This document shows, piece by piece, positions 5 to 12,519 of a stretch of DNA of 12,519 nucleotides. The notes under the pieces were generated by a model. That model was not told the DNA's origin. It saw only the letters and a list, made by a program, of their open reading frames with translations, and did no database searches. The position numbers and the translations under genes are program-made. Each line of letters begins with the position of its first letter. Positions within the stretch are counted from its first letter, which is position 1. Origin of the DNA: Chloroflexota bacterium (GTDB lineage: Bacteria; Chloroflexota; Anaerolineae; 4572-78; J111); NCBI GenBank assembly GCA_003695455.1, contig RFJF01000523.1, positions 1 to 12,519 on the forward strand, read 5' to 3'.

Positions 5-658
5 TTGGACGAACGGATTGAGGAGATTTTTGACGCGCTGTACAACCACACCCTCGACGGCGAAGATGAGCCGGTGGTGGCGCTAACCAACGAGGCGCTG
101 GAGTTGGGTGCGGACCCGCTTGAAATCCTGTTTGATGCGCTGATTCCGGCGCTGGAAGAGGTGGGCCGGCTGTTTGAGGAAGGTCGCTACTTTGTGCCTG
201 AAATGCTCATTGCCGCCAAAGCCATGGAAGGAGCCATGGACATTCTCAAGCCGCTCATTGCCCAAACCGGGGCCAAGCCCATTGGCACGTTTGTGATGGG
301 CACCGTCAAGGGCGATATTCACACCATCGGCAAAAATCTGTGCAACGTGATGCTGGAGGGCGCCGGTTTTCAGGTGGTTGACATTGGGGTCAACGTGCTG
401 CCGGAGGAATATGTGGCCGCCATCCGCGAACACAAGCCGGATGCCGTGGGTATGAGCGCCTTTTTGACCACCACCATCACCATGTTTGAACCAACCATGC
501 AGGCCATTGTCGAGGCCGGGCTGCGGGATGAAGTTTTGGTGTACGTGGGCGGCGCGCCGGTTACGCAGGAATACGCCGACTCGTGCGGCGCCGACGGCTA
601 CGCGCCCAATGCCAGCGCGCTGGTCCGGGATTTAAAGATGCGGTTGGGGTTGACCTGA
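5..658 (+). CDS. Corrinoid (B12-binding) protein of a methyltransferase system
   Basis: The product carries a methylcobalamin-type cofactor and shuttles methyl groups between a substrate-specific methyltransferase and a second methyltransferase in the cytoplasm. Residues about 1-88 are a helical bundle typical of the B12-binding-2 cap. Residues about 92-215 form the Rossmann-like B12 domain. The cobalt-ligand motif DxHxxG is present as D104-I-H106-T-I-G109, followed by GMSAFLTTT near 149-157 and VGGAPVT near 181-187, all as in MtbC/MttC/MtaC-like proteins. Length (217 aa) is normal for the family. The start is uncertain: a TTG at position 5 gives MDERIEE, but the frame is open to the window edge and the RBS would lie outside it. 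The methyltransferase partner is not in the window, so the methyl donor (methylamine, methanol, glycine betaine or other) cannot be told. The 3' end overlaps the convergent decarboxylase gene by 27 bases. Confidence 0.9.
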   Translation: MDERIEEIFDALYNHTLDGEDEPVVALTNEALELGADPLEILFDALIPALEEVGRLFEEGRYFVPEMLIAAKAMEGAMDILKPLIAQTGAKPIGTFVMGTVKGDIHTIGKNLCNVMLEGAGFQVVDIGVNVLPEEYVAAIREHKPDAVGMSAFLTTTITMFEPTMQAIVEAGLRDEVLVYVGGAPVTQEYADSCGADGYAPNASALVRDLKMRLGLT

Positions 659-4895: not shown

Positions 4896-7409
4896 TCACA
4901 ACCGAACCTTCCGCAAGCGAAGGCTGTTGCTGACCACCATCACCGAACTGAACGCCATGGCCAGCGCGGCCAGAATGGGATGCAGTTGCTGCAAATAGAC
5001 CGGCGCGCCGGGAACCAGCGCCAGCGCCCCCGCCGCAATGGGGATGAGCAGCACGTTGTAGGCAAACGCCCAAAACAAATTCTGGCGGATGACCCGCATG
5101 GTAGCCCGGCTCAAGGCGATAGCTTTGGGCACGCCGCGCAAATCGCTGCCCACCAGCGTCACGTCTGCCGCCTCCAGCGCCACATCCGCGCCGCTGCCTA
5201 CGGCAATGCCCACATCGGCCTGCGCCAGCGCCGGTGCGTCGTTGATGCCGTCGCCGGCCACGCCCACCCGGTGTCCCTCGGATTGCAGCCGCTGCACCAC
5301 CGCCGATTTTTCACCGGGCAGCACATCGGCCTGCACCTGCGCAATGTTCACCGCGCGGGCAATGGCCGCCGCTGTGGCCGCGTTGTCGCCGGTCAGCATC
5401 ACCACCTGCAACCCCTGCGCCTGCATCTTTGCCACCGCTTCCGCCGATCCCTCGCGCAGCGTGTCTGACAGGCCAAACACCGCCCGCGTCTGCCCATCCA
5501 CCGCCAGCCACAGCACCGATTGCGTCTGCTCCTGCATCCGCACGCCGCGCTCCAGCAATCCATTCAGCGCCACCTGCCGTTCCTGCAACAGCCGCAAACT
5601 GCCCACCAACACCGAACGCCCATCCACCACCGCCGACACTCCGCGCCCGGCCAGCGCCTCAAAGCGAGCCGGCTCGCTCAGCGGCAGACTTGCCGCCTGC
5701 GCCGCCCGCACCAGCGCCTGCCCCAGCGGATGTTCGGAGCCACGCTCCGCCGACGCCGCCAGCCGCAAAAATTCCAACATTTCCGGCGCATGGTTTCCCT
5801 TGTTCATTGTTAATTGTTCATTGCTCATTGCCAATTGCTCATTGTTCATCGCGGTCACGGCAAACTCGCCGCGGGTGAGCGTGCCGGTTTTGTCCAGCAC
5901 CAGCGTATCCAGCCGGTGCGCCTGCTCCAGCGCCGCGCTGTTTTTGAACAGAATGCCCAGATTTGCGCCGCGCCCCATGCCCACCACAATCGCCGTGGGG
6001 GTTGCCAGCCCCAGTGCGCAGGGGCAGGCAATCACCAGCACCGCCACCAGCCGGATGAGCGCCGCCGTAAAACCGGCTCCGGCGGCCAGCCACAGCCCAA
6101 ATGTTAGCAGCGCCAGCAGCAGCACCGCCGGCACAAACACCGCCGCAATCCGGTCTGCCGTGGCCTGAATGGGCGCTTTGCTGCCCTGCGCCTGCTCAAC
6201 CAGCCGCACAATCCGGGCCAGCGCCGTATCCCGCCCCACCCGCGAGGCCTCCATATTCAGCCGTCCGTGCGTGTTCAGCGTGGCCCCAAACAGTTCGTCG
6301 CCTACATTTTTTTCGACCGGCAGACTCTCGCCGGTGAGCAAACTCTCATCCACGGCAGAAAAGCCACCGGTCACCACCCCATCCACCGGGATTTTCTCGC
6401 CGGCTTTGACCAGCAGCGTATCGCCCACCTTCACCTGCTCGATGGGTACGTCAACCTCAACGCCGTTCCGCAGCACGTGCGCCGTTTGAACCTGCATCCC
6501 GGCCAATTTTCTGATGGCCGCCCCGGCCCGCCCTTTGGCCCGTGCCTCCAGCAGCTTGCCAATTTTAATCAGCGTAATGATGGCCGCCGATGTTTCAAAA
6601 AAGGTCGGCGCGCCGGAAAACGTCACCGTCACCACCGCCGAGTAGCTGTAGGCCACGCCCGCGCCCAGCGCCACCAGCGTATCCATGTTAGCCGTGCGGT
6701 TGCGCAGGCTCTTCCACGCGCCGCTAAAATAATCGCGGCCCGTGACCAGCAGAACCGGGGTTGCCAGCACCCACAAAATCACATTCAGCCACGGGTCGTA
6801 CACCCACTGGTCAATGGCGTTAATGCCCTGCGCCGTCAGCAGCAACAAAATCCGTTTGTGGGTCAGCCACATAATCAGCGCGGTAAAAAACGCGCCCACC
6901 CACAACTGCCGTTTTTGGCGGTTGATTTCCGCCTCGCGGGCCGCCTGTTCCGCATCGAGCGCGGTTGGCCCGGCGGAATCATCCCCCGCCAGCACACCGT
7001 AACCAGCCCGTTCCAGCGCGGCGGCCAGTTCGGCGCGGCCCGCCACACCGGGAATCACCGTCACCGAGGCCCGTTCGGTGGCGTAATTGACCGTGGCCTG
7101 CACCACGCCCGGCACCTTTTTATTGAGCGTGCGCTCCACCGTGGCGGCGCAGTTGGCGCAGGTCATCCCGGTGATGGGCAATTCCAGCTCGGCCAGCGGC
7201 ACGCGATAACCGGCGCGTTCCACCCGTTCAATTACCTGCTGCGGGGTGGCGCGGCGCGGGTCAAACGACACGGTCAATTTTTCGGTGCCAAAGTTGACCG
7301 CCGCCTCGGATACGCCGTCCACTTTGCGGGCGTTCCGCTCCACGGTGGCGGCGCAGTTGGCGCAGGTCATCCCCAGCACCGGCAGAGTGAGAGTTTGTTT
7401 GTTGGTCAT
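4896..7409 (-). CDS. copA: Cu(I)-exporting P1B-type ATPase
   Basis: An 837-aa inner-membrane pump that uses ATP to export Cu(I). It has two N-terminal heavy-metal domains, each with GMTCANC (residues 13-19 and 81-87). The eight-helix P1B core includes the membrane CPC motif (ACPCALG, 461-467), actuator TGES (359-362), phosphorylation site DKTGT (D506), nucleotide-domain SEHPLG (558-563), TGDN (673-676) and GDGIND (719-724). YN (784-785) and MAFSS (818-822) in the last helices are the Cu(I)-type residues. The start ATG at 7409 leads directly into the first metal domain. Oddity: residues about 521-538 ([18 protein letters not shown]) lie between [11 protein letters not shown] and SEHPLG, are encoded by a 21-bp-period repeat, and look like an in-frame insertion. 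The gene follows fetAB in the same direction after 292 bp. No CsoR/CueR operator was recognised. Confidence 0.96.
5800..5849 (-). repeat. In-frame 21-bp-period repeat inside copA
   Basis: On the coding strand, two 21-bp units and the start of a third are built from ATGAACAA, ATGAGCAA, TTGGCA and TTAACA words. They encode [14 protein letters not shown] and MNK. The AT-rich composition contrasts sharply with the GC-rich gene around it and resembles the intergenic CAATTA/CAATTG tract at 4803-4840. The length is a multiple of three, so the frame is kept. Confidence 0.85.
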
Positions 7410-7701: not shown

Positions 7702-8490
7702 TTACCGCCGCGCCGCTTCCGCATCTGGGGGTAAAACAAGCTGGTGGGCGGCGGTAAAAAACTGGCGAGTGGTGAGAAAGGTGGCGGTCAGTCCGGCAAA
7801 CGCCCCCGCGCCGATAAGCATGTACATCACAATTATTTGCAACTGTACCGCCTCCAGCGGAGACGCGCCGGCCAAAATCATACCGGTCATTGCGCCGGGC
7901 AGGGCAATCAGCCCCACGGTTTTGGTGCTGTCCACAATGGGAGTCATCCCCGTGGAGAGGGCGCGCCGCATTTGCAATTGCGATGCCTGGCGCCGGGTAG
8001 CGCCCAGCGCCAGCGCCGCCTCGATTTGCGGCTTTTGCAGGCGTACGTCATCGCGCAGGCGGGCCATCACCAGCCCGGTCACGGTCATCGAGTTGCCGAC
8101 CACCATCCCGGCAATGGGGATGATGTAGCGCGGCTCAAAAGGGAACACATCAAGCAGGATCAGCAGCCCCAGCGTAAGCAGCGCCCCCACACTCACCGAA
8201 GCCGTAGCCACAAACTGGCCGCGCGGCACATTTTTGCCGCGTTTGCCGGCGGTGTAGCCGGCAATCGTAATCATCACCGCCACCACCAGCAAAATCCAGA
8301 ACGGCCCTTCTGTGCCAAAAATCAAATCCAGGGCGTAGCCAATCAGGATAAGCTGGATAAATGCCCGGACCACCGCCACCAGCATCTCCCGTTCCAGCCC
8401 CACATTCTGCCAGCGAGAAATCCCCATTGCCGCCAGTACCAGCACCAGTGCGCCGGCAATGCGCGGCAGCCAGCTCAGACTTTCCGGCAT
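7702..8490 (-). CDS. fetB: FetB-like iron export ABC transporter permease
   Basis: A 262-aa integral membrane protein of the UPF0014/FetB family, which in E. coli works with FetA to export iron and improve oxidative-stress resistance. Seven or so hydrophobic segments are visible, including MLVAVVRAFIQLILIGYAL, FWILLVVAVMITIAGYTAG, GALLTLGLLILLDVF and MYMLIGAGAFAGLTATFL. Family motifs are IPIAGMVVGNSM, ALALGATRRQAS and LPGAMTGMILAG. The start is ATG at 8490, with AAGGAG (8498-8503) 7 nt upstream. A GTG two codons earlier would overlap the fetA stop as GTGA, but it sits only one base from that RBS. It is translationally linked to fetA (gap 2 bp). Iron as substrate is inferred from family; other metals are possible. 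Confidence 0.9.
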   Translation of the reverse strand: MPESLSWLPRIAGALVLVLAAMGISRWQNVGLEREMLVAVVRAFIQLILIGYALDLIFGTEGPFWILLVVAVMITIAGYTAGKRGKNVPRGQFVATASVSVGALLTLGLLILLDVFPFEPRYIIPIAGMVVGNSMTVTGLVMARLRDDVRLQKPQIEAALALGATRRQASQLQMRRALSTGMTPIVDSTKTVGLIALPGAMTGMILAGASPLEAVQLQIIVMYMLIGAGAFAGLTATFLTTRQFFTAAHQLVLPPDAEAARR

Positions 8491-8492
8491 GG

Positions 8493-9233
8493 TCACGCTC
8501 CTTCCCGCGCCGATTCCAGTTGGCCGCGCGCAAACTCTTCGGTCAGGTGGGGGTGCGCGCCGGACAGCAGGTGCGCCGGCGAACCGCGTTCCACAATTTG
8601 CCCGTCCACCAGCAGGGCCATCCGGTCGGCGGTGCGCTCCACCTGCTCAATGGCGTGCGACACCCAAACCACCGTCAACCCCAGCGAATCGCGCAGGCGC
8701 AGCACGGTTTCTTCCACGTGGCGCGTGGCCGCCGGGTCCAGCGCGCTGGTGGGTTCATCCAGCAGCAGCACATCCGGCTCGTTAGCCAGCGCGCGGGCCA
8801 GCGCCACCCGTTGCGCCTGCCCGCCGGACAATTCGGCAGCGGGTTTGGCGGCCATGCCCGGTTCCAGCCCGGCCATCTCCAGCAGTTCGCCAATTCGATT
8901 GGCAGACAGTGTTCGCCCGCACAGTTGGGGGCCAAAGGCCACATTCTGCGCCACCGTGCCCTCAAACAGGGCCGCACTCTGAAACAACATGCCCACCCGG
9001 CGGCGCAGGGCCAGCACATCCAGCGTGGTGATGTCCTGTCCATCCAGAAAAATGGTTCCCGGCGGCGGCTCCCACAGCCGGTTCAGGCAGCGGAGCAGGG
9101 TTGATTTTCCACTGCCACTGGGGCCAATCAGGCTGGTGATTTTTCCCGCCGGCACATCTAGCGAGACATTCTGCAAGATTTGAGAATCTCCCAGCTGCAA
9201 ATTGAGGTTTTTCACGGAAATTCGGTTTGACAT
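8493..9233 (-). CDS. fetA: FetA-like ABC transporter ATP-binding protein
   Basis: A 246-aa cytoplasmic ATPase that powers the FetB permease. The complete nucleotide-binding site is visible: Walker A GPSGSGKST (37-45), Q-loop LFQ (Q85), signature LSGGQ (135-139), Walker B VLLLDE (155-160) followed by the D-loop PTSALD, and switch histidine H193 (WVSHA). The sequence is PstB-like in style, but the adjacent UPF0014 permease identifies the FetAB system. The start ATG at 9233 has GGAGG about 9 nt upstream. It follows cysE by 44 bp, so it may belong to the cysteine operon. Its stop is 2 bp from the fetB start. Confidence 0.9.
   Translation of the reverse strand: MSNRISVKNLNLQLGDSQILQNVSLDVPAGKITSLIGPSGSGKSTLLRCLNRLWEPPPGTIFLDGQDITTLDVLALRRRVGMLFQSAALFEGTVAQNVAFGPQLCGRTLSANRIGELLEMAGLEPGMAAKPAAELSGGQAQRVALARALANEPDVLLLDEPTSALDPAATRHVEETVLRLRDSLGLTVVWVSHAIEQVERTADRMALLVDGQIVERGSPAHLLSGAHPHLTEEFARGQLESAREGA
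8498..8503 (-). promoter_or_regulatory. fetB RBS inside the fetA 3' end
   Basis: AAGGAG lies within the last fetA codons, 7 nt before ATG 8490. Its position implies translational coupling and decides between the GTG and ATG starts. Confidence 0.7.
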
Positions 9234-9277: not shown

Positions 9278-9958
9278 TTAAATTGAAAAATCCTCAAGCC
9301 AGCCGTGATGTTCCACCGGCTGGCGACCGTTGGTTTTCTGCTCCAGCGTTTCCACCCGCGCCAGCAGCGATTGCACGGTTTTAGCCATCACGTCCGGCAA
9401 GCGGGTGTGGTTCAAATCGGGGGGATCGGTGGGCAGGTGGGCTTTGCCCCGTTTGATGACGCGCCCCGGAATGCCGATAACCACCGAGTTGGGCGGCACA
9501 GATTTGACCACCACCGCGTTGGCCCCAATCCGGCTGTCTGCGCCGATGACGATATCGCCCAGAATTTTGGCCCCCGCGCCCACCACCACCCGGTCTTGCA
9601 GGGTGGGGTGGCGCTTGACCCGCTGCGTGCTGGTGCCGCCGAGTGTCACGCCATGATACAGGCTCACATCCTCGCCAATTTCTGTGGTTTCACCGATGAC
9701 GATGCCCATACCGTGGTCAATGAAAAAGCCGGGACCAATTTGCGCGCCGGGGTGAATTTCGATGCCGGTCAGAAAACGCATAACGTGCGACACCCAGCGC
9801 GCCAGCAATTTCAGGTTGTGTGTCCACAGCCAATGGGCGGCGCGATGCCCCCACTGGGCGTGCAGACCGGGGTAGCAAAGCAAAATCTCCGGCACGGTAC
9901 GCACAGCAGGGTCGCGGTCAAAGATTACCCGGATATCGCGTTTGATAGTTTCTAACAT
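9278..9958 (-). CDS. cysE: Serine O-acetyltransferase (short EpsC type)
   Basis: Transfers acetyl from acetyl-CoA to L-serine to make O-acetylserine, the cysteine precursor. Length is 226 aa, the short Gram-positive/cyanobacterial form that lacks the long N-terminal helical domain of E. coli CysE. Left-handed beta-helix hexapeptides run about residues 67-165 ([30 protein letters not shown]). Catalytic and substrate residues are visible: RDPA (D16), DHG (D81-H82) and RHP (R116-H117). Residues about 188-208 are probably helical and lead to a C-terminal tail ending in isoleucine (EDFSI), as needed for docking into CysK. The start ATG at 9958 has AGGAGG (9968-9973) 9 nt upstream. It is separated from cysK by 178 bp that contain the palindromic element R3. 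Confidence 0.95.
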
Positions 9959-10126: not shown

Positions 10127-10139
10127 TCCTCCTGAGTCA
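10127..10139. repeat. Direct repeat (right copy), overlapping the cysK stop
   Basis: TCCTCCTGAGTCA. On the minus strand it reads TGA (the cysK stop) followed by CTCAGGAGGA, an orphan RBS-like sequence with no start codon at the right distance. It is the partner of 9967-9979. Confidence 0.75.
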
Positions 10140-11072
10140 GTCGGCCAGGTCTGCAAACAGCGGCGTGCTGAGGTAGCGCTCGCCGTTTGAGGGGATGACG
10201 GCCACAATCAGTTTGCCGGCGTTTTCCGGGCGACGGGCCACCTGCAGGGCCGCCCACGTTGCCGCCCCGGACGAAATGCCCACCAGCAAACCTTCCTCAC
10301 GGGCCATCCGCCGCGATGTTTCAAAGGCGGCCTCGCCGCTGACCTGAATGATTTCGTCATAAATTTTGGTATTGAGCACATCGGGGATGAAACCCGCGCC
10401 AATGCCCTGAATGGGGTGCGGCCCTTTTTGCCCGCCAGACAGTACCGGCGAGCCTTCCGGTTCAACCGCCACCACATGCACACCCCGTTTGTGGGCCTTC
10501 AGCGCTTCCCCCACCCCGGTAATGGTTCCACCGGTGCCAATGCCCGCTACCAGAATATCCACATTGCCGTCGGTATCGCGCAGAATTTCTTCGGCGGTGG
10601 TGCGGCGGTGGATTTCCGGGTTGGCCGGGTTCTGGAACTGCTGGGGCATAAAATATTTGCCGGGGTCAGAATCTACCAGTTCCTGCGCCTTGGCAATGGC
10701 GGCGTTCATCCCGCCGGAACCGGGGGTGAGGATGAGGTCTGCTCCGTAAGCCCGCAGCAGCATACGGCGCTCGCGGCTCATCGTATCGGGCATGGTCAGC
10801 ACGCATTTGTAGCCGCGTGCGGCGCACACAAAGGCCAGCGCAATGCCGGTGTTGCCGCTGGTTGGCTCCACAATTACGGTGTCTTTGTTAATCAGGCCGG
10901 CTTTTTCTGCGGCGTTAATCATGGCCACGCCAATACGGTCCTTCACGCTGCCGGCAGGATTGTAATATTCCAGCTTGACCACTACTTCGGCGGCGCAGCC
11001 TTCGGTCAGCCGGTTCAGGCGCACCAGCGGCGTGTTCCCCATCAGTTCAGTAACATCGTTTGCAATTTTCAT
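10137..11072 (-). CDS. cysK: Cysteine synthase A (O-acetylserine sulfhydrylase)
   Basis: PLP enzyme that replaces the acetyl group of O-acetylserine with sulfide to give L-cysteine. The 311-aa product has all the family marks: NPAGSVKDR with Schiff-base lysine K44, substrate loop TSGNTG (71-76), phosphate-binding GTGGT (179-183), GISSGA with S268 near the pyridine nitrogen, and the C-terminal [13 protein letters not shown]. Length is typical of CysK; there is no CBS domain. The start ATG at 11072 has AAGGAG (11081-11086) 8 nt upstream. Upstream lies a 335-bp structured leader with an intrinsic terminator, so expression is probably controlled by transcript termination. Downstream, cysE follows after element R3. 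CysM-type use of other sulfur donors cannot be excluded from sequence. Confidence 0.96.
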
Positions 11073-11080
11073 TTAATTCT

Positions 11081-11086
11081 CTCCTT
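11081..11086 (-). promoter_or_regulatory. cysK RBS, preceded by a small hairpin
   Basis: AAGGAG lies 8 nt before ATG 11072. Just upstream in the transcript, ACCGG (11110-11106) and CCGGT (11099-11095) can form a 5-bp hairpin. Confidence 0.75.
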
Positions 11087-11120
11087 TTATTTTTACCGGA
11101 TCAACCCGGTGAATCGATAT

Positions 11121-11158
11121 AAAAAAAACCCATCGAGTGCAAAAGTGCGGGCGATGAG
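11121..11158 (-). terminator. Intrinsic terminator in the cysK leader
   Basis: In the minus-strand transcript, CUCAUCG (11158-11152) pairs with CGAUGGG (11135-11129), including one U-G pair, across a 16-nt segment. It is followed directly by eight uridines (11128-11121). It lies about 50 nt before the cysK start codon and would stop the leader transcript. Its 5' arm is also part of the alternative stem described for the leader. Confidence 0.75.
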
Positions 11159-11328
11159 TCTTTAAACGAGCGCAATGGCGCACCTGTAATCATTTATTTG
11201 GCATTAATTGGGAGGTGTGAACGCCGAAGGGGCGTTCATTAACCGGGGTGACTCATCGCAGGTGGAGTGAGCCGCGGATGCAAACAACAGGCGGGCAGAC
11301 ATTGGCGTGGCCCGTCGAACGCATCCGC
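11151..11328 (-). ncRNA. Structured cis-regulatory leader of cysK (class not recognised)
   Basis: Several helices are visible in the minus-strand RNA, listed 5' to 3'. GCGGAUGC (11328-11321) pairs with GCAUCCGC (11281-11274), 8 bp, enclosing a 5-bp GCCCG/CGGGC-type stem. GCGAUGAGUC (11259-11250) pairs with GACUCAUCGC (11160-11151), 10 bp perfect. Inside the latter are UGAACGCC/GGCGUUCA (8 bp, 5-nt loop) and CACCU/AGGUG. The AGGUG side can also form CACCUG/CAGGUG with 11264-11259. The 10-bp stem consumes the 5' arm of the downstream terminator, so the two are mutually exclusive. I see no T-box, S-box, cobalamin or TPP consensus. Function as a riboswitch or attenuator is inferred. Confidence 0.6.
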
Positions 11329-11407
11329 TTGCGACAGATACAACAAATTGCGCGATGAAATCCGGTTTCGGTCAACATAGTAACTCTGTTTTAACCCCAT
11401 CCGGGAA

Positions 11408-12519
11408 TTATGGCAAATTCAGGTTGATCACGACGGCGTTCTCGCCGCTGGTATCACCGATGATGGGGAACCGTTCAAAATTGATGGGGTTGTACAGCCC
11501 CACATACAACCGGTAGGGTGCGCCATCGGCGGAAAGAGGCAACGGAATTTGCAGGTCGGCGGTATCGCGGAGCCACTCACCTGATTCTCGCAACAGGTTC
11601 CACTCGGTCACCGTGAGCAGACCTTCGTAGAAATAGTGGTCGGCCTGGGCAATGATCCGGCCCTGATTGTTGCGCAGTTGCACAAATACTTTGGGGGGCT
11701 GGGCGATATTCGACACATCGGCGGCCGGCCGCCAGAACAGCGCCAACGAGGCGGTTCCATCGGGTGAAACGCGATTCAAATCCAGCGTGTAGCCTTGTAA
11801 CAGAATCTGGCGGTTGAAATTTCCGTCGAGCGGCATAGCCGGCTCAGGCGGAACCGGCTGCGGAAAGGGCCGGCTTTTGAAAATGAACACCTGTCCGCTC
11901 TGGTGAACAAAATCCATCTGGGCAAAAATCTGCTGCGTAAAATAAGGCTTGAAGCGACGGTAGAGGCGGGCGTCATCCACCACAAACCAGACGCGATTTC
12001 CCTGAGCCAGCACTTGATTCAAGGCATCCACATTGTCGATGAGCGGCCGGCCAATGTAGCGGTCAACAAAACCAAAGGACTCTTCCTCATCCTCAAGCAC
12101 TTTGGCCGAGACCTGGTTGGCGTAATAATCTACCTGGCCGGCAAAGATGTAAGCCGCCGTTGAATGGATGGTGATGATTTTATCGCCGGGTTGCAGGTTT
12201 GCCTTCACATATTCAAACGCGGTGTTGTAGTTGCCGGTGTTTTTGGCGTGAGTGGTGTGCCAGGCGGTTTGCCCCCAAAATCCCGCCACCAGCAGCACGG
12301 CGGCCAGCGGCAGCAGACGGGCAACAAAACCGCTGCGGCGCAGCACCGGCAGCCGCAGCGATAGCTGCTCCGTGAAAAAATTGAGCGTTTGGGCCACGCT
12401 TTGTGCTGCAAGCACAAATAATGCCGGCTGCACCAGAATGAACAAATATCGGGCTTTGACCCAATTGTTGGTAAACAGCAGACCGTGTTCCAAATTGACC
12501 AGCACCACCAGCAGGCTCA
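11408..12519 (-). CDS. GT39-like membrane glycosyltransferase, C-terminal part (5' truncated by window)
   Basis: Partial gene: the reading frame is open to the window edge (codons for Ser-Leu-Leu precede the visible VVLVNLEHG), so the true start and most transmembrane helices lie outside. What remains has two hydrophobic helices (ARYLFILVQPALFVLAAQ and LLPLAAVLLVAGFWG). After these come a soluble region with NYNTAFEYVKANLQPGDKI, WFVVDDARLYRRF and a beta-rich C-terminal domain ending LYVGLYNPINFERFPIIG. The arrangement matches dolichyl-phosphate-mannose/ArnT-like family 39 glycosyltransferases, which add sugars from lipid carriers on the outer face of the membrane. The C-terminal style is one I associate with Chloroflexota. 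The acceptor and sugar are unknown. It ends 335 bp before cysK. Confidence 0.75.
   Translation of the reverse strand, partial: SLLVVLVNLEHGLLFTNNWVKARYLFILVQPALFVLAAQSVAQTLNFFTEQLSLRLPVLRRSGFVARLLPLAAVLLVAGFWGQTAWHTTHAKNTGNYNTAFEYVKANLQPGDKIITIHSTAAYIFAGQVDYYANQVSAKVLEDEEESFGFVDRYIGRPLIDNVDALNQVLAQGNRVWFVVDDARLYRRFKPYFTQQIFAQMDFVHQSGQVFIFKSRPFPQPVPPEPAMPLDGNFNRQILLQGYTLDLNRVSPDGTASLALFWRPAADVSNIAQPPKVFVQLRNNQGRIIAQADHYFYEGLLTVTEWNLLRESGEWLRDTADLQIPLPLSADGAPYRLYVGLYNPINFERFPIIGDTSGENAVVINLNLP

Follow-up and report, generated by a model that had tools for sequence, protein, structure and literature searches.

The window (the whole stretch of 12,519 nt analysed here, from an uncultured Chloroflexota bacterium of the class Anaerolineae) carries cysK on its minus strand, followed 3' by cysE, which is probably co-transcribed with it. 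Three further genes were assigned by eye and are entered in Table 1 as presumed. An upstream ORF ends 29 bp 5' of the ATG of a short leader-peptide ORF (uORF), which was overlooked in the first-pass annotation of this DNA. The uORF, its cysteine codons and a series of potential RNA stems occupy the region between that upstream ORF and cysK.

Table 1. Features of the window and the basis on which each was assigned.
Feature	Position	Strand	Description and basis
Corrinoid-binding-like protein	5..658	+	presumed; putative, by eye
Heavy-metal P-type ATPase	4896..7409	-	presumed; putative, by eye; two N-terminal CXXC domains
ABC transporter pair	7702..9233	-	presumed; putative, by eye; downstream of cysE
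cysE	9278..9958	-	serine O-acetyltransferase; TIGR01172, 243.4 bits, above NCBIfam cut-off
cysK	10137..11072	-	cysteine synthase A; TIGR01139, 480.4 bits, above NCBIfam cut-off
Intrinsic terminator	11121..11160	-	GACTCATCG 11160-11152 with CGATGGGTT 11135-11127; T8 11128-11121
Segment D	11151..11160	-	antiterminator 3' arm and terminator 5' arm, GACTCATCGC; sequence and recurrence in relatives
Predicted codon-region partner	11170..11187	-	11187-11179/11342-11334, 11177-11176/11345-11344, 11175-11170/11353-11348; ribosome-free fold
Inner 8-bp hairpin	11218..11238	-	TGAACGCC 11238-11231 with GGCGTTCA 11225-11218
Segment C	11250..11259	-	antiterminator 5' arm, GCGATGAGTC; sequence and recurrence in relatives
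P2	11250..11273	-	alternative pairing GGCTCA 11273-11268/TGAGTC 11255-11250; predicted in minimum-energy folds
uORF	11253..11378	-	41 codons and TGA (11255-11253): MLTETGFHRAICCICRKRMRSTGHANVCPPVVCIRGSLHLR; translation; in-frame ATG common in relatives
P1 hairpin	11274..11328	-	GCGGATGC 11328-11321 with GCATCCGC 11281-11274
Control codons	11334..11345	-	TGT TGT ATC TGT (CCIC): Cys12 11345-11343, Cys13 11342-11340, Cys15 11336-11334; sequence; motif recurs in relatives
Possible extended -10 element	11407..11415	-	TGCCATAAT, weak; a guess from sequence; start site would be ~11400

Every stem reported in the first-pass annotation was confirmed as letters on the minus strand, among them the 10-bp stem, the 8-bp stem upstream of it (here P1), the inner 8-bp hairpin and the terminator. 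The 10-bp stem is perfect, and 89 nt separate its arms, C and D. The arm common to this stem and the terminator, in the window and in relatives, is the terminator 5' arm, which supports the proposal that the two structures exclude each other and that the 10-bp stem is the ON form. The letters of the proposed pseudoknot, CACCTG (11264-11259) and CAGGTG (11186-11181), are also present on this strand. A simple terminator scan of the window returned 0 terminators; this one was missed because the 16 nt between its arms exceed the scan's loop limit of 8. The predicted fold of the 208-nt region has an energy of -76.2 kcal/mol; shuffles averaged -55.7 (z -5.24), and 0/200 were as low. A perfect inverted repeat of at least 10 bp arose in 26 of 2000 dinucleotide shuffles, which makes the 10-bp repeat by itself only moderately improbable; that it recurs in relatives is the stronger evidence.

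The control codons lie directly 5' of P1. The uORF, which is longer than in many relatives, runs on for 27 codons beyond the last codon of CCIC, and its stop codon falls within C; a ribosome at this stop would cover C, and one stalled at the Cys codons would not. No clear Shine-Dalgarno sequence was seen by eye 5' of the window's ATG. Six leader peptides matched 0 NCBIfam families at E<=10, a weak test for such short peptides.

The CysK of the window was searched against 61 relatives and 298 genomes of the class, 127 of the 298 matching at E<=1e-110. From these, 129 cysK upstream regions were taken (L001-L129, including the window's own; eight listed matches were left out). A motif search for Cys-X-Cys codons followed by a spacer and a stem yielded 52 loci, of which L103 and L124 were dropped as GC-rich coding-like sequence, leaving TGY-NNN-TGY-N5-RCGGR in 50/129 regions. 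In all 50, exactly 5 nt separate the second Cys codon from RCGG, where the pattern permitted 3 to 8; the spacing was different in the two loci dropped. An ATG no more than 60 codons from the Cys codons is in frame in 44/50; the two alternative frames gave 2 and 8. The leader peptides are otherwise diverse; many stop shortly past the Cys codons, and the position of the stop codon is not conserved. Among the 79 regions without the motif, 14 match a loose Cys filter, and six of these (L040, L063, L067, L075, L076, L081) look like variant leaders.

C, D and a terminator were found together in 26 of the 50 leaders, with C after P1 and D ~70-190 nt further on; in most of the 26, D is seen as the 5' arm of the terminator hairpin. 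The remaining 24 have other or unclear arrangements. Thirteen leaders (L010, L011, L013, L037, L045, L051, L057, L078, L032, L033, L041, L068, L073) keep the Cys codons and first stem and have a different downstream arrangement without a C/D pair. No terminator was returned by scan in L027, L046, L050, L054, L066 and L068, with one visible by eye in L066.

The cysK leader is very probably a transcription attenuator, operated by the ribosome and sensing charged tRNA-Cys. This reading is built on what the DNA itself contains, namely the ORF, the conserved codons and their spacing, P1, the chain of C, D and terminator, and the recurrence of these before sulfur genes. The leader would be transcribed and translated, with stalling that follows cysteine. 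When Cys-tRNA is scarce, a ribosome would stall on the Cys codons, masking the codon region along with the beginning of P1 and leaving C free to pair with D; held by C, D could not join the terminator, and cysK, probably with cysE, would be transcribed. When Cys-tRNA is ample, the ribosome would proceed to the stop codon (inside C in the window copy) or leave; C would be covered or held by upstream pairing, D would pair with the terminator 3' arm, and transcription would end in the U-run. Of the signals suggested by the first-pass annotation, the evidence picks out translation state, through the in-frame Cys-X-Cys leader peptide; nothing found points to O-acetylserine.

A ligand-binding riboswitch (for cysteine, O-acetylserine, SAM or sulfide), a kind of element that the first-pass annotation had allowed for, would have an aptamer formed by P1 and the inner hairpins. 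The leader is indeed structured, its terminator and antiterminator are mutually exclusive, and a new class could not be recognised by Rfam, of which no family matched either the window (10900-11600 at E<=5) or 12 relatives, in keeping with the annotation, which had called the leader possibly unclassified. What is conserved argues otherwise: there is no conserved aptamer core, the interior of P1 varies widely in length and sequence among relatives, and the conserved letters are codons in an open frame, a Cys-X-Cys leader peptide at fixed distance from P1. A riboswitch is therefore very unlikely. The same Rfam search covered T-boxes. In a T-box, the conserved Cys codon would be a specifier read by uncharged tRNA-Cys. 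A structured leader that has Cys codons, a terminator and an antiterminator would fit, as would the physiological signal, which is the same; however, no T-box match was obtained in that region or in the 12 relatives, and a T-box would not be expected to have a short ORF with at least two Cys codons in frame. The probability of a T-box is close to negligible.

Promoters were scored 5' of the 50 uORFs. The best -35/-10 scores had a mean of 9.96/12 vs 7.25 in shuffles, and 35/50 uORFs reached at least 10/12 vs 1.6% of 1000 shuffles. A consensus promoter scan of the window found no promoter, and the window's best -35/-10 pair is poor, at 7/12. At L047, L050, L054, L059 and L105, the uORF start codon lies just 6-7 nt past a -10-like element, and these uORFs may be translated from leaderless transcripts.

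A covariance model, R1, was built to span the codons, P1 and C, without D and without the terminator. The window was scored at 50.5 bits (E 3.8e-8), as the one match in its genome (87% complete). R1 had 16 matches at E<=0.01 in the 61 relatives, and 8 of these had served in its construction. In 28 chosen genomes, 20 of which had contributed to R1 and 4 of which had matches in the search of the 61 relatives, 37 matches were found in 27 genomes at E<=0.001. Phylum-wide, R1 matched at least 2 of 400 genomes, a figure that says little with 10 candidates per genome scored under strict filters. On 80 named cysK loci the best E was 0.56, with two matches lying downstream of the cysK match. The codon motif occurs in 6 of these 80, all titled Anaerolineae, Anaerolineales, Anaerolineaceae, Chloroflexi or Longilinea, and is absent from the other Chloroflexi-titled loci among them. 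One further locus, L172 (Mycobacterium scrofulaceum), has a short frame ending in CCCHCC upstream of a cysK-like gene and resembles published mycobacterial Cys leaders.

Nineteen matched leaders that had no part in building R1 were taken. L144 (weak, 28 bits) was left out because it resembles coding sequence, and L255, beside a cysK, because it has no motif by regular expression. The downstream genes were assigned by HMM (several fall under narrow NCBIfam cut-offs yet above Pfam's) or by resemblance. They comprise cysE (L246, HMM), cysteine synthases of CysM/CysK type (L145 and L251 by HMM, L143 from the CysK search, L253 by resemblance), a sulfur transporter (L136, HMM), a ThiS gene followed by a sulfur transporter (L135, HMM), rhodanese/ThiF-type proteins (L238 and L250 by HMM, L244 by resemblance), a rhodanese (L256, HMM), metA (L254, HMM) and ThiS-type carriers (L135 and L140 by HMM; L141, L142, L245, L247, L248 and L252 by resemblance). 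The leader at L254, with uORF MRLCSCLQRA, lies 5' of this homoserine O-succinyltransferase gene and suggests that methionine synthesis is tied to cysteine supply. The membrane proteins at or near the L135 and L136 leaders are Sulf_transp (YeeE/TsuA-like), which suggests that cysteine controls the uptake of thiosulfate or a related compound.

Downstream, 18 of the 19 have a D segment able to pair with C, and a hairpin with T4 after it; the exception, L252, has D and no T4 in range. This bears on whether the Cys-rich uORF could work by translational coupling or Rho-dependent termination, the intrinsic terminator being incidental. Rho has been proposed for Actinobacteria Cys leaders without evident terminators (PMC1262725), and the six leaders named above likewise have none evident by scan; but 26 cysK leaders and 18/19 others share the set of C, D and terminator, and such a mechanism is extremely unlikely.

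Another reading, very unlikely, accepts the family as a cysteine attenuator and takes the window's copy to be decayed, silent or dependent on the upstream gene for all its transcription. The weak promoter, the nearness of the upstream ORF and the length of the uORF relative to that of many relatives would agree with such a state, but the codons, P1, C, D, the terminator and the open frame are all intact, the copy scores well with R1, and attenuation would still operate on transcripts that read through from the upstream gene. The window leader is apparently an intact member of a recurrent, apparently undescribed Anaerolineae family of cysteine leader-peptide attenuators.

Covariation was measured on an alignment of the 26 C/D leaders, in which P0 denotes a helix of the Cys-codon region with bases beside C. 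The score for P0 and P1 was 0.226 vs 0.055-0.085 when slid and 0.108 when shuffled; by two of five measures, double-change pairs and further pair types, the alignment was not above shuffles (428 and 494 of 500 as high). In P1, five base pairs are formed in 26/26 leaders, with a GC/AU exchange at one of them. P0 cells are paired in 66%, and P0 is strong in several subgroups, reaching 11 bp. As a universal helix P0 was rejected, since it fails in the window's own subgroup, where P2 (GGCUCA/UGAGUC) is predicted to take its place. P2 is a candidate anti-antiterminator in the window copy, and the exact anti-antiterminator presumably differs between subgroups. In the window alone, the codon region is also predicted to pair over 17 bp with 11187-11170, likewise in place of P0, and this partner was not seen as a conserved feature among the window's nearest relatives. 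In the 19 leaders outside the model, P0/P1 covariation was 0.148 vs 0.049-0.077 slid, on an alignment fitted to the model.

Pairing of C with D was compared within and between sequences in 45 leaders, giving means of -14.48 and -12.26 respectively. No permutation of 20000 did as well, a count that overstates independence because the sequences are related. Shuffled downstream regions attained the observed C:D energy in 5/190 trials; neither control corrects for shared ancestry. Exchanges occur, such as GCGGTGAGTC/GACTCACCGC in place of GCGATGAGTC/GACTCATCGC.

The switch was modelled by folding with and without a ribosome. In the ribosome-free window the terminator is favoured by 9.5 kcal/mol. 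With the codon region masked, the two forms are predicted to be level (-64.1 terminator vs -64.7 antiterminator), and with a ribosome on the stop codon the predicted fold keeps the terminator. Codon masking shifts the balance in the window by +8.8 kcal/mol, and 0/20 shuffled codon regions gave a shift as high. Over the 21 scorable leaders (5 of the 26 were dropped where the fixed register failed), the mean shift was +2.67 vs +0.59 for shuffled codon regions; it lay in the expected direction in 15/21 and above the leader's own shuffled mean in 16/21. L002, L004, L008 and L012, the nearest relatives of the window's leader, were unremarkable in this test. In equilibrium folding of truncated transcripts, L015, L053, L065, L069 and L072 flip to C:D on codon masking, the window goes from 0.62 to 1.00, and most other leaders favour C:D even unmasked; the window's full-length value is disregarded, since that transcript ended at a T4 within the loop of the terminator. 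The folding tests are mixed, and a switch set by ribosome position on the control codons is plausible, not proven.

In trp-type attenuators, a short ORF with codons for the end product precedes a mutually exclusive antiterminator and intrinsic terminator. The cysK leader likewise has an ORF of end-product codons and an exclusive antiterminator/terminator pair. It differs from the trp type in its cysteine codons, in the ~70-190 nt between C and D, in a stop codon of unconserved position, and in that the control codons themselves can pair beside C in some subgroups.

Cysteine versions of this arrangement are described elsewhere. The uORFC-8-2 motif before cysS in Rhodobacterales is a predicted ribosome-mediated attenuator with conserved tandem Cys codons inside its first stem and a 3' U-run (PMC8632094). 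The leaders examined here share with it the predicted mechanism, the conserved Cys codons and the U-run. By description they are set apart from it, as uORFC-8-2 is reported only for cysS of Rhodobacterales and has tandem Cys codons, whereas the present family has Cys-X-Cys, 5 nt and RCGG (CCIC in the window) and precedes cysK and other sulfur genes in Anaerolineae. Actinobacteria Cys leaders are described as having no conserved terminator hairpin and Cys runs near the stop codon (PMC1262725), mycobacteria as having Cys-rich uORFs on leaderless transcripts (PMC4633059), and regulatory cysteine codons are mentioned for M. tuberculosis with reference to Canestrari 2020 (PMC13236596). Like these, the present leaders are Cys-rich uORFs before cysteine genes, and some may be leaderless too; unlike in the reported Actinobacteria versions, intrinsic terminator and antiterminator recur, and the window's stop lies well past CCIC. 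The accessible parts of PMC4833913 and PMC9413887 hold nothing on cysteine. No Chloroflexota cysteine attenuator was found in the literature searched (open-licence papers). The mechanism class is already known, as the trp type and as Cys versions in Actinobacteria and before Rhodobacterales cysS; the family looks new, and lies in another phylum than the known Cys leaders.

Cysteine regulators of the Rrf2/CymR type are proteins. The leader, an RNA located upstream of cysK, would fulfil the same role. An Rrf2/IscR-like motif was found upstream of cysK in 17/79 loci without the leader (L005, L006, L009, L018, L021, L024, L025, L082, L083, L086, L095, L096, L099, L106, L109, L111, L117) vs 0/50 with it, by a regular expression that misses some Rrf2 genes. 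This apparent exclusion suggests that RNA and protein regulation have been exchanged for one another, which could be traced on a tree.

A broader reading is about as likely as not. Across much of Anaerolineae, one cis-acting attenuator would replace a cysteine repressor, and its copies before cysK, cysE, cysM-like genes, the ThiS-type carrier/MoeB route, a sulfur transporter and metA would make up a regulon without a dedicated protein regulator; in several subgroups the Cys codons would double as a strand of the antiterminator-blocking helix, so that sensing and switching fall on the same nucleotides. Under the attenuator reading, attenuation by Cys leader peptides reaches a further phylum, with an intrinsic terminator and antiterminator that recur. 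The reading offers an account of cysteine control that can be tested in this large class, most of which is uncultured, and the motif and covariance model mark sulfur genes under common control.
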